Assembly (NCBI GenBank): GCA_017396945.1
Contig: JAFQKI010000016.1
Location: 16,703 to 80,702 of the forward strand
Direction: 5' to 3'
DNA length: 64,000 nucleotides
DNA from: Muribaculaceae bacterium
GTDB lineage: Bacteria; Bacteroidota; Bacteroidia; Bacteroidales; Muribaculaceae
Under the pieces are notes generated by a model. It searched no databases and was not told the origin of the DNA. It saw nothing but the letters and a program-made list of their open reading frames with translations. Position 1 is the first letter of the stretch. Every line of letters begins with the position of its first letter. Both the position numbers and the translations under genes were made by a program. This document shows, piece by piece, positions 50,664 to 54,100 of the stretch.

Positions 50664-51127
50664 GACATCTTTTTTCCCTCATTTCAATAGTTTTCACAAT
50701 AGCAATTGTGGGAATGGCGCAAAATACTACCCGTCCAAATCTTGAGCCTGAGATTACCACCGCCGGTCAACCGACAGAATTTACAGACTCACTAATCGTT
50801 GACAGCTCGCTCATTTCAATATCAGGCTATGACAAACCTCTCAGAGCTACAAAAGAGACCTTCTTTGTCTCCAACAAGTATGCCTGTGACATTACAGCCA
50901 TTTCCATAACCTTTAATTACTACGACATGCAAGGAAGACAGCTACACGCTGTTACACAAGAGATTACACAAGAAATCCCATCGGGCGAAACCCGACAACT
51001 ATACATTCCCTCCTGGGACAAACAACAAGCTTTTTATTACTACCTAAGTCCGCAACCTCGACGTAGCGCCACTCCCTACAAGGTTGAATATCGCATCAAC
51101 TACGTCAGATTGCGTCAACACCCCTGA
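50660..51127 (+). CDS. Exported protein of unknown function
   Basis: 155 residues from ATG 50660, in the ATGA overlap with the preceding gene. The signal peptide is RHLFSLISIVFTIAIVGMA and cleavage there would leave QNTTRPN, an N-terminal glutamine. The remainder has alternating strands (FFVSNKYACDITAISITFNY, LYIPSWDKQQAFYYY) that suggest a beta-sandwich. I recognise no family. Its stop lies 4 nt before the ABC ATPase start. Confidence 0.7.
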   Translation: MRHLFSLISIVFTIAIVGMAQNTTRPNLEPEITTAGQPTEFTDSLIVDSSLISISGYDKPLRATKETFFVSNKYACDITAISITFNYYDMQGRQLHAVTQEITQEIPSGETRQLYIPSWDKQQAFYYYLSPQPRRSATPYKVEYRINYVRLRQHP

Positions 51128-51131
51128 AACA

Positions 51132-52559
51132 ATGACCGACCTCATACATCTACATAGCGACACGCTACAATATAATGGAATAAAACTATTCAACCCACAC
51201 CACGTCACCATTACTAACGGAGTCAACGTTGTAATCGGAGCCAATGGCGCAGGCAAATCATCTTTTGCTCGCATACTCGAAAAGGGGTGGAACTTCATGA
51301 CCAACCGCATCACCTCCCCAATAGGGAAAATGAGGATTAAATGCATTGAGTTTGCCGACATACACTCCTTGTCGGGCTTCAAAGCCGAATACTACCAACA
51401 GCGTTATGAATCGATGATGAACGATGAGGTTCCAACTGTCGCCGAATTGATGAAAGAGCGCATCGATACTCAACGCTGGCAACACCTCTGCGAATTATTA
51501 TCGCTAAACGGCATCGAGGAGAAACGCGTCAACTTCCTTTCAAGCGGAGAATTGCGCAAACTACTTATCATCAACACCATGTTTGATCTCCCGGATCTGC
51601 TTATTCTTGATAATCCCTATATAGGTCTCGACAGCATATCTCGCCAAGTGTTGAACGACACAATACGACAGATTGCCGGCGATGGCATCACTGTGATGCT
51701 CATCCTATGCAACACAAGCGACATCCCATCATATACCGATGTCCTTATCCCCATACACAACTCTGTGATTGGAAAACCAATCAGCTATCAAACCATAACC
51801 GAGTCGGAGAAATTGGAAATCTCTAAAATGTTTGATTACAATATCGACTTGACCCAACTACCCGACAAGCCCGACACCGAAACACTAAATGCCGATATAA
51901 TATTCGCATTAAACCGATGCAAAGTGAGATATGGCTCAATCACAATACTAAACGACGTTTCGTGGACCGTAAAAACAGATGAATGTTGGTCTTTGACCGG
52001 AGCCAATGGTTCAGGCAAATCCACATTGCTAAGCCTCGTCCATGCCGACAACCCACAAGGATATTCCAACGATATAACCCTGTTTGACCGTCGCCGCGGT
52101 TCAGGAGAAAGCATCTGGGACATCAAACGCCACATCGGCTATATCTCCCCAGAAATGCACCACTACTTCAATGGCAGTGGCGACGTCACAACCATCATCG
52201 CCCAAGGATTGAATGACACAGTCGGGCTATTCAAAAAGCTCAAAGACTGGCAAATCGCGCAAGCAAAATGTTGGATGCGACTCCTTCACATCGACCACCT
52301 CAGTACCCGATTATTCAACACGCTATCGGCAGGGGAACAACGGTTGGTGCTACTCGCTCGCACACTCATAAAGCACCCGCAACTACTTATTCTTGACGAA
52401 CCCCTTCACGGACTTGACGAGGCTCGCAAACGCAGCATACGCACACTCATAAATCATCTGACTAAACGCGACAAGCTATCACTGATTTATGTAACCCACT
52501 ATCTACCTGAGATACCCGATTGCGTAACTCATCATTTCACCCTAAAGAGAGTCATTTAG
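51132..52559 (+). CDS. Tandem ABC ATPase, ModF/PhrA-like, first site degenerate
   Basis: 475 residues from ATG 51132 (the longer frame overlaps the preceding gene). Two ABC domains without membrane segments. Domain 1 has Walker [10 protein letters not shown] (36-44) and signature [10 protein letters not shown], but its Walker B is [12 protein letters not shown] with asparagine (161) where the catalytic glutamate is expected. Domain 2 is complete: GANGSGKST (290-298), [22 protein letters not shown]. The arrangement resembles ModF/PhrA-type ATPases. No permease gene is adjacent, so its partner and substrate are unknown; the operon partners are two exported proteins and DUF3078. Confidence 0.82.
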
Positions 52560-52603: not shown

Positions 52604-52611
52604 TACCTTTG
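52604..52611 (+). promoter_or_regulatory. -7 element of the metK transcript
   Basis: TACCTTTG, 175 nt before the metK start; this leaves room for the structured leader. No TTTG at the standard spacing was found. Confidence 0.62.
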
Positions 52612-52627
52612 CGGTCGTAAAAACATC

Positions 52628-52680
52628 ATGGTGGAAAAATTTGGCCGCTTGCAACCACCCAAAAAAATGCTAAAACCGCA
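52628..52680 (+). ncRNA. SAM-II riboswitch aptamer upstream of metK
   Basis: The RNA has stem P1 GGUGG / CCACC (52630-52634 with 52655-52659) enclosing a loop with AUUU (52639-52642) and CUUGCA (52648-52653), followed by an A-rich joint and GCUAAA (52669-52674). These are the conserved blocks of the SAM-II pseudoknot as I know it from alphaproteobacterial leaders. Pseudoknot pairing is available between GC 51-52 and GC 69-70, and between GG 43-44 and CC 76-77 (last two digits of 526xx). Position upstream of the SAM synthetase gene fits. This rests on by-eye comparison; no covariance search was run. Confidence 0.8.
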
Positions 52681-52696
52681 AAAATCCCTAAACTTT

Positions 52697-52746
52697 ACGG
52701 TCAACAGCATTTGCAAGCGTCACACAATTAGTGTCGCCCGTTTTTT
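52697..52746 (+). terminator. Intrinsic terminator in the metK leader (riboswitch expression platform)
   Basis: Inner stem GCG-(TC)-ACAC / GTGT-CGC (52717-52725 with 52731-52737, 2-nt bulge, AATTA loop), optional outer ACGG / CCGT pairing (52697-52700 with 52738-52741), then six T (52741-52746). Its 5' side TTGCAAGCG (52711-52719) is the exact complement of aptamer-loop residues 52646-52654. Confidence 0.72.
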
Positions 52747-52786
52747 CATTGTGATAAATAGTGTAACAATAAAAAACAAATGCTAT

Positions 52787-54100
52787 ATGAACTATCTATT
52801 TACATCTGAATCAGTATCAGAAGGGCATCCAGATAAAGTTGCCGACCAAATTTCAGACGCGATACTCGATGAGTTTCTTGCCTATGACCCTCAGTCAAAG
52901 GTAGCTTGCGAGACACTTGTAACAACCGGTCAAGTTGTTATCGCCGGAGAAGTAAAAAGTAGCGCCTACATCGACTTGATGGATGTAACTCGTCGTGTAA
53001 TCAACGGCATTGGCTATAATCGTAGCGAGTTGAAATTTGACGGAGACGCTTGCGGAGTGTTCTCAGCCCTACATGAACAAAGCGCCGACATCAACCGCGG
53101 TGTAGAACGCGAAATCGATGAAGAGCAAGGTGCCGGCGACCAAGGTATGATGTTTGGATATGCGTGTGACGAGACCGCAAATCGCATGCCCATAACACTT
53201 GACCTCAGCCACAAACTACTCAAAGAATTGTCAACCATCCGTCGCGACAAGTCGGCAATGACCTATACCAACGCGTCAGGCGAACAAGTGAGCTATCTAC
53301 GCCCTGACTCAAAGAGTCAAGTAACCGTAGAATACTCTCCTGATGGCAAACCGGTGAGAATACACACAATAGTAATCTCAACACAACACGATGAGTTTAT
53401 CGTTGCCGAAAACGGCAAAACCCAAGACCAAGCCGACACTGAAATGCTCGGCATCATATATAACGATGTAAAAAACGTCTTAATACCTCGTGTTGTTGCC
53501 TCTTTATCTGAAAATGAGCAAAAACTCTTTGACGACAACTTTATATTGCACGTCAACCCAACCGGGAAATTTGTAATTGGAGGTCCACATGGCGACACCG
53601 GATTGACCGGTCGCAAAATCATTGTTGACACATACGGAGGTCGTGGAGCACATGGAGGTGGAGCATTTTCAGGGAAAGATCCCTCAAAGGTTGACCGTTC
53701 AGCCGCATACGCGGCACGCCACATCGCCCGCAACTTAGTCGCGGCAGGCATCGCCGGCGAAGCCTTGGTGCAAGTTGCATACGCCATAGGTGTCGCTCAT
53801 CCTGTGAGCCTATATGTCAACACCAACGGAACTGCTAAAGTCAACAAATCTGATGCCGAAATATCGGCAATCGTTAATGAGATATTTGACATGCGTCCCC
53901 ACGCAATTGAAAAAAGATTGAAACTTCGCGCCCCAATCTATCAGGAGACAGCCTCTTATGGTCACATGGGACGTACTCCTCTAACAATCACAAAAACATT
54001 TGAATCAAAATATGAGGGGATTAAGAGCGTGACTGTCGAACTTTTTACTTGGGAAAAAGAAGACTACGTTGAACAGCTACGCGACGCGTTCAACCTTTAA
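52787..54100 (+). CDS. metK: S-adenosylmethionine synthetase
   Basis: 437 residues from ATG 52787. The enzyme makes SAM from methionine and ATP. Motifs are [20 protein letters not shown] at the start, [12 protein letters not shown] and [20 protein letters not shown]. The length of about 430 fits the Bacteroidota form, longer than the E. coli enzyme (384). The same frame stays open upstream to 52520, but that stretch contains the promoter and riboswitch and is not translated. Expression is predicted to be reduced when SAM is abundant through the leader described at 52628-52746. Confidence 0.96.

Follow-up and report, generated by a model that had tools for sequence, protein, structure and literature searches.

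A SAM-II long-loop riboswitch before metK in a Muribaculaceae bacterium, with a predicted transcription-attenuation platform

The metK gene in the window (the whole 64-kb stretch of Muribaculaceae DNA that was analysed) starts with an ATG at 52787, and it was identified as metK from all three Pfam S-AdoMet_synt domains. A gene with two ABC ATPase stretches (51084-52559) lies directly 5' of its leader. The leader matched the Rfam model for SAM-II long loops (RF01726) at 52625-52683 on the forward strand, with a cmscan score of 60.4 bits against a gathering score of 44 (E-value 3.9e-9 for 64 kb), and this was the sole Rfam match across the whole window. Alignment to the model places P1 (GGUGG/CCACC), UUGCAA and AUGCUAAA in the window aptamer, and the match stops 104 nt upstream of the ATG. 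The original prediction, made from the letters of the DNA, had named a SAM-II element on metK with an aptamer ending more than 100 nt before the gene, and had proposed a covariance-model search of the leader. The search returned a significant match, the class and the distance both held, and every letter and coordinate proved exact on re-checking. We regard the leader as a well-supported SAM-II long-loop riboswitch and predict that it binds SAM. The features of the aptamer and its surroundings are as follows.

52604-52611, forward strand: promoter-like TAnnTTTG box TACCTTTG, recognised by its recurrence upstream of aptamers
52625-52683, forward strand: SAM-II long-loop aptamer (RF01726), covariance-model match
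52630-52634, forward strand: P1 5' strand, GGUGG, from the model alignment
52644-52647, forward strand: likely P2 pseudoknot 5' strand, from covariation columns and inspection
52655-52659, forward strand: P1 3' strand, CCACC, from the model alignment
52676-52679, forward strand: likely P2 pseudoknot 3' strand, from covariation in the same columns as the 5' strand
52787-54100, forward strand: metK (S-adenosylmethionine synthase), with three Pfam S-AdoMet_synt domains

Among 241 distinct aptamers, column pairs 19-48 and 20-47 ranked sixth and eighth among all pairs, in a ranking where several of the pairs placed above them are not base pairs and reflect relatedness. Pair 19-48 appears as G-C and A-U (standard in 73%) and pair 20-47 as C-G and U-A (80%), and together they likely represent the P2 pseudoknot. 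In the window, G52644-C52679 and C52645-G52678 are given by covariation and G52647-C52676 by inspection, while C52646 faces C52677 as a mismatch. On the minus strand, the antisense of the aptamer (52657-52642) resembles a terminator hairpin with a T run, which is probably a by-product of the A-rich aptamer.

The window's own draft genome (completeness 63.8%) contained one RF01726 match, and the aptamer was present in all 12 genomes of the genus (its own included), in 279 of 297 family genomes and in 77 of 119 sampled order genomes. Of 189 loci collected, one lacked the aptamer pattern; metK was the next gene at 186 of the other 188, and these 186 were kept. Among the matches listed, the nearest named metK sequences came from an uncultured Bacteroidales bacterium (74% identity), Paramuribaculum (72%) and a Muribaculaceae bacterium (71%), which makes Muribaculaceae the probable family. 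The family set comprised 136 leaders (12 from the genus and 124 others) from 25 of 30 genera, with 18 of 30 additional loci entered, and the set of other leaders comprised 119, with 51 of 80 named loci entered. The survey of start-region accessibility used 179 leaders, seven of unusual length being left out. The leaders come from the best-scoring matches listed, so high-scoring aptamers are over-represented. Several are near-identical and many have common ancestry, which makes the leader counts interdependent, and L105 and L162 possibly derive from a single genome.

The TAnnTTTG box, which we take to be a Bacteroidetes promoter element, stops 18 nt 5' of P1 in the window. It preceded the aptamer in 11 of 12 genus leaders, 105 of the 124 other family leaders and 104 of the 119 other leaders, compared with 2.7-5.0% of mononucleotide shuffles. 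From box to UUGCAA the distance varied little within the genus (interquartile range 34-36 nt) and more widely across the family (34-47 nt). As the box lies just upstream of the aptamer, the aptamer is probably near the transcript start.

Everything 3' of the aptamer is prediction. The features that enter the proposed switch, together with the aptamer loop, are listed here.

52646-52654, forward strand: aptamer loop CGCUUGCAA, predicted antiterminator target and exact complement of 52711-52719
52706-52719, forward strand: candidate anti-aptamer strand AGCAUUUGCAAGCG, from predicted folds
52717-52737, forward strand: candidate terminator hairpin, -6.2 kcal/mol, score -10.9
52741-52746, forward strand: U tract of the candidate terminator, also in a strand with two alternative partners in predicted folds, the 5' side of the aptamer or the A-rich stretch ahead of the ATG
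52741-52755, forward strand: UUUUUUCAUUGUGAU, forming a predicted 15-bp helix with 52625-52639 in the free read-through fold
52766-52786, forward strand: ribosome landing region, predicted to be less accessible with the aptamer masked

To score terminators, a hairpin plus T run in each leader was compared with dinucleotide shuffles, at a threshold of -10. The window hairpin and the six T after it, both part of the original prediction, are real but modest: the hairpin is bulged, three bases (CCG) separate its stem from the six T, and its score was equalled in 7 of 500 shuffles. It was absent from a stricter terminator scan, and 52684-52746 folded alone gave a z of -1.84, with 11 of 200 shuffles folding as well. 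Terminator-like hairpins passed the threshold in nine of the 12 genus leaders, against 5.4% of shuffles (8.9% in a second shuffle set). The window hairpin is the weakest of these nine (-10.9 compared with -11.7 to -17.2), and the eight genus mates with stronger terminators have U tracts 23-40 nt before the ATG. Because L002/L003, L005/L006 and L008/L010 are close pairs, the nine amount to about six separate cases; L007, L009 and L011 had no terminator at the -10 threshold. The proposed terminator platform is thus favoured by the nine genus leaders and by two-state folding (below), but the window hairpin is the weakest in the genus and was missed by the stricter scan. We consider an intrinsic terminator platform in the window plausible and somewhat weak, supported but not proven. 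In L152, L186 and L219, the 5' arm of the terminator includes GGCTTTAGC, which is nearly complementary to GCTAAAACC, the 3' strand of the aptamer.

As originally claimed, TTGCAAGCG (52711-52719) is the exact complement of CGCTTGCAA (52646-52654). An exact complement of equal weight between aptamer and downstream sequence occurred in 4 of 300 dinucleotide shuffles, and a loop duplex of equal stability in 7 of 200. In the predicted free fold the 14-nt strand AGCAUUUGCAAGCG pairs with AUGCU (52667-52671) as well as with the loop (52646-52654), and with the aptamer masked its AGCAUUU (52706-52712) pairs with AAAUGCU (52778-52784). Here a masked aptamer is a stand-in for the SAM-bound state, the pseudoknot being outside the fold model. 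For a transcript cut at the T run, forcing the terminator cost 4.3 kcal/mol with the aptamer free and 0.1 kcal/mol with it masked, and the higher cost was reached by none of 60 linker shuffles. In folds of growing length, the probability of P1 dropped from 0.84 at 52714 to 0.00 at 52718, with the loop helix forming once most of the loop complement has been transcribed. The whole leader of the read-through RNA had a z of -3.79 (0 of 200 shuffles folded as well). Of 400 shuffles, 6 matched the energy gained by pairing aptamer with downstream sequence, 2 matched the free-state energy and 34 were as stable as the masked-state fold, an ordinary value; the window duplex to the conserved 3' strand was ordinary too (26 of 200). 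In silico, the antiterminator excluded both the aptamer and the terminator, and the 15-bp helix between 52625-52639 and 52741-52755 would lock the free state in the read-through RNA.

The exact 9-mer pairing was rejected as a conserved feature: TTGCAAGCG occurred in only one of the 12 genus leaders and one of the 124 other family leaders. The antiterminator of the original prediction is plausible in this genome, where it is predicted to displace P1 once 52718 is made, but the complement is not retained in close relatives, an outcome that the original prediction had named as refuting it. Loop complements of at least 8 nt, located within or next to the 5' arm or the apical loop of the terminator, were found in five of 66 family terminator leaders (L001, L167, L187, L229 and L284), from four genera; four remain without the window, from three other genera. 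The shuffle mean was 0.5, with a maximum of 3 in 100. With complements of at least 7 nt, nine family terminator leaders were found versus 2.6 in shuffles. Exact complements to the conserved 3' strand showed no enrichment near terminators. Judged by duplex energy at the 0.05 level, 7 of the 12 genus leaders, the window not among them, paired to the 3' strand better than their shuffles; for the loop this held in 2 of 12 and for the P1 5' strand in 1 of 12. Other genus leaders may pair the 3' strand, in place of the loop, with a downstream strand. The free-versus-masked difference in terminator cost exceeded 1.5 kcal/mol in four of nine genus leaders. Among 59 terminator leaders tested, nine had a free-state cost that beat all but three of their 60 shuffles; in one of these nine, L176, the cost was equally high with the aptamer masked and is therefore uninformative on switching. 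The longest exact complement anywhere in the leader reached 0.05 for genus terminator leaders in 2 of 9 cases, for family terminator leaders in 7 of 44 and for family leaders lacking a terminator in 26 of 62.

Among the 136 family leaders, 44 leaders from nine genera (g5, g17, g18, g19, g21, g23, g25, g27 and g28) make up a candidate start-masking group. A downstream TTT(n0-2)CCAC strand combined with a GGAAA mimic at the start was found in 36 of the 44, compared with 0 of 92 elsewhere. Terminators were found in 1 of the 44, which are mostly short (about 60-103 nt) and leave little room for a hairpin, versus 65 of 92 elsewhere, where the shuffle rate at the -10 threshold is high in some terminator genera (26% in g4, 20% in g30 and 37% in g29). 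At -12 these rates were 14%, 12% and 23%, and 15 of 18 g4 leaders and 14 of 15 g30 leaders still passed. Six of the 21 g17 leaders (L035, L038, L178, L203, L218 and L223) have GTTCAT(G/C)nTCCAC facing GGTACAATGAAC, a variant that replaces TTTTTCCAC facing TGGAAAAATG. Both partners are altered together, and the helix would extend over the AUG itself. Read simply, the nine genera would mask the start codon, and most of the window's genus would terminate transcription. In the start-masking design, TTTAGC[AG]TTTTTCCAC, which can pair with two strands of the aptamer, lies opposite TGGAAAAATG at the start of metK; examples of such leaders are L014, L015, L025, L030, L153, L161, L171 and L175.

Access to the metK start in the window was also predicted to depend on the aptamer. 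The mean unpaired probability from -20 to +3 was 0.75 with the aptamer free and 0.22 with it masked, a result seen in 0 of 400 shuffles of the whole downstream leader. In the masked fold to 52800, GUUUUUUCAUUGU (52740-52752) pairs with ACAAUAAAAAAC (52766-52777), and most of the stretch from -7 to -1 is paired whether the aptamer is free or masked. The unpaired probability of the AUG was 0.49-0.89 masked versus 0.33-0.39 free in the fold to 52800, and 0.14-0.92 masked versus 0.57-0.79 free in the fold to 52830. Across the genus the mean fall in accessibility was 0.173 (0 of 5000 resampled shuffles), or 0.141 without the window (2 of 5000); seven leaders, one per close group with the window left out, gave 0.129 (31 of 5000). 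The fall beat all 20 of a leader's own shuffles in 3 of 12 genus leaders and exceeded 0.3 in the window alone. When start regions were swapped, pairing of the window linker with its own start region lay at percentile 0.121; the family showed a mild excess, with 18 of 136 leaders at or below 0.05 and a median percentile of 0.32. The word AAATGCTA, shared by the aptamer and the pre-start region, was rejected as evidence for a translational swap in the window, being not significant (240 of 1000). An out-of-frame AUG lies at 52780-52782, seven bases 5' of the metK start; AUG is reported to be under-represented near starts in Bacteroidetes in the abstract of PMC6847099. The same abstract describes Bacteroidetes as lacking Shine-Dalgarno sites, with initiation tuned by mRNA structure and upstream A. 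Closure of the A-rich stretch could therefore have an effect even so. Given the anti-aptamer strand and the lower access to the landing region on masking, the downstream part may also hide the ribosome landing site, and control may be dual. The preference of the original prediction for transcriptional control draws support from the terminators; the translational arm that it set aside may act as well.

Computation directly gave the aptamer, its position between a promoter-like box and metK, and the exact complement; we infer ligand binding, two states, termination and a translational arm. Our preferred explanation, held with moderate confidence, is that at high SAM levels the SAM-II long-loop riboswitch lowers metK, chiefly through transcription attenuation. 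Without SAM, the nascent strand (52706-52719) would invade the aptamer: AGCAU would pair with AUGCU of the conserved 3' strand, and UUGCAAGCG would then pair with the loop and open P1. As this invasion takes the 5' arm of the terminator hairpin, polymerase would read on into metK. With SAM, the pseudoknot would hold the loop and the 3' strand, the hairpin at 52717-52737 would form before the U tract, and transcription would stop. In read-through RNA, the freed strands could pair with AAAUGCU and the A-rich stretch before the AUG and could add a translational block. More tentatively, one bipartite strand would break the aptamer without SAM, supply the terminator arm with SAM, and cover the A-rich start in read-through RNA, in a phylum without Shine-Dalgarno sites.

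Other explanations of the platform have to be weighed. One that we think unlikely is translational control only, in which the six T are no terminator tract and belong to the swapping strand UUUUUUCAUUGUGAU, which would pair in turn with the 5' side of the aptamer and with the A-rich stretch ahead of the ATG, a behaviour that TTTTTCCAC appears to show in other genera. The window and genus falls in accessibility, the start-masking design in nine family genera, and initiation through structure and upstream A all argue for this. Against it stand the eight genus mates with stronger terminators, whose U tracts precede the ATG by 23-40 nt. In addition, few genus leaders beat all their shuffles and the window alone shows a fall above 0.3, the window linker pairs with its own start region only at the 12th percentile, the shared word is ordinary, and closure of the AUG is inconsistent between the folds to 52800 and 52830.

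We give a higher, though still tentative, standing to control at both levels, with termination acting first and the ribosome region masked in whatever is read through, a possibility that refines and overlaps our preferred explanation. The same strands yield both predictions and each beats its shuffles, and passages of PMC9373788 report multi-level control by a Sinorhizobium SAM-II element, of a different kind in which translation is lowered and the mRNA stabilised; the objections to termination and to the translational arm each apply here, however. Finally, the aptamer alone may be meaningful, with a platform that works otherwise (through RNA decay or Rho-dependent termination, for example) and a hairpin and complement that arose by chance. 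The 9-mer is unconserved, the hairpin and the complement each have a modest shuffle result (7 of 500 and 4 of 300), and the window case was picked for its good looks. Terminators nevertheless recur across the genus and the family, loop complements are also found in other genera, and we consider this explanation improbable.

SAM-I (S-box) riboswitches work by an antiterminator, and their aptamer is unrelated to that of SAM-II. In Gram-positive bacteria they likewise bring about SAM-dependent transcription termination before methionine and SAM genes, according to passages of PMC1273637. For SAM-II, text passages of PMC1273637 and PMC2258182 have reported putative terminators after many aptamers since 2005, so the contrast drawn in the original prediction, that known SAM-II elements mostly mask the start codon, was too broad. 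The best-studied marine SAM-II element probably acts on translation, and in Sinorhizobium a metZ terminator is predicted alongside incoherent control of translation and RNA stability (both in passages of PMC9373788). The alpha-proteobacterial SAM-II elements of metA and metZ (RF00521) resemble the window in having an aptamer near the transcription start and a putative terminator OFF switch (PMC1273637 and PMC9373788, in part), with one case of two-level control among the passages of PMC9373788. In contrast to these, the window element lies on metK, belongs to the long-loop model, comes from Bacteroidota without Shine-Dalgarno sites, and has a defined antiterminator strand whose predicted target for invasion is the loop of the aptamer.

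The SAM-II long-loop class was published in 2010 by Weinberg et al., with Bacteroidetes listed (main-text passages of PMC2864571); the window has the same aptamer model, and we saw no difference from it in the aptamer. Those main-text passages describe no expression platform for RF01726. Among the titles, abstracts and main-text passages listed, none described a SAM-II platform in Bacteroidetes. The main text of the TaRTLEt paper (PMC12121620), in the passages covered, lists Bacteroides RNA-seq data with SAM-II absent, and 12 of 35 text matches in the B. thetaiotaomicron transcriptome paper (PMC7366714) contained no SAM-II passage. The riboswitch in the window is new, its class is known, and the platform split is the part that specialists would want to follow. 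Tentatively, we combine these results in a model in which one bipartite strand would play three roles and a single family aptamer would serve two platforms, with fast turnover of the anti-aptamer strand.

Since metK is the SAM synthase gene, the switch would be direct feedback on the methyl donor. It probably allows a gut bacterium to lower expression of its S-adenosylmethionine synthase gene once enough of the product is available, and would provide feedback control of methyl-donor synthesis in gut-type bacteria. The split between terminators and start masking would offer a testable answer to how SAM-II acts in Bacteroidota, with many natural variants, and, if it is true, the family would be a natural series for watching riboswitch platforms change.
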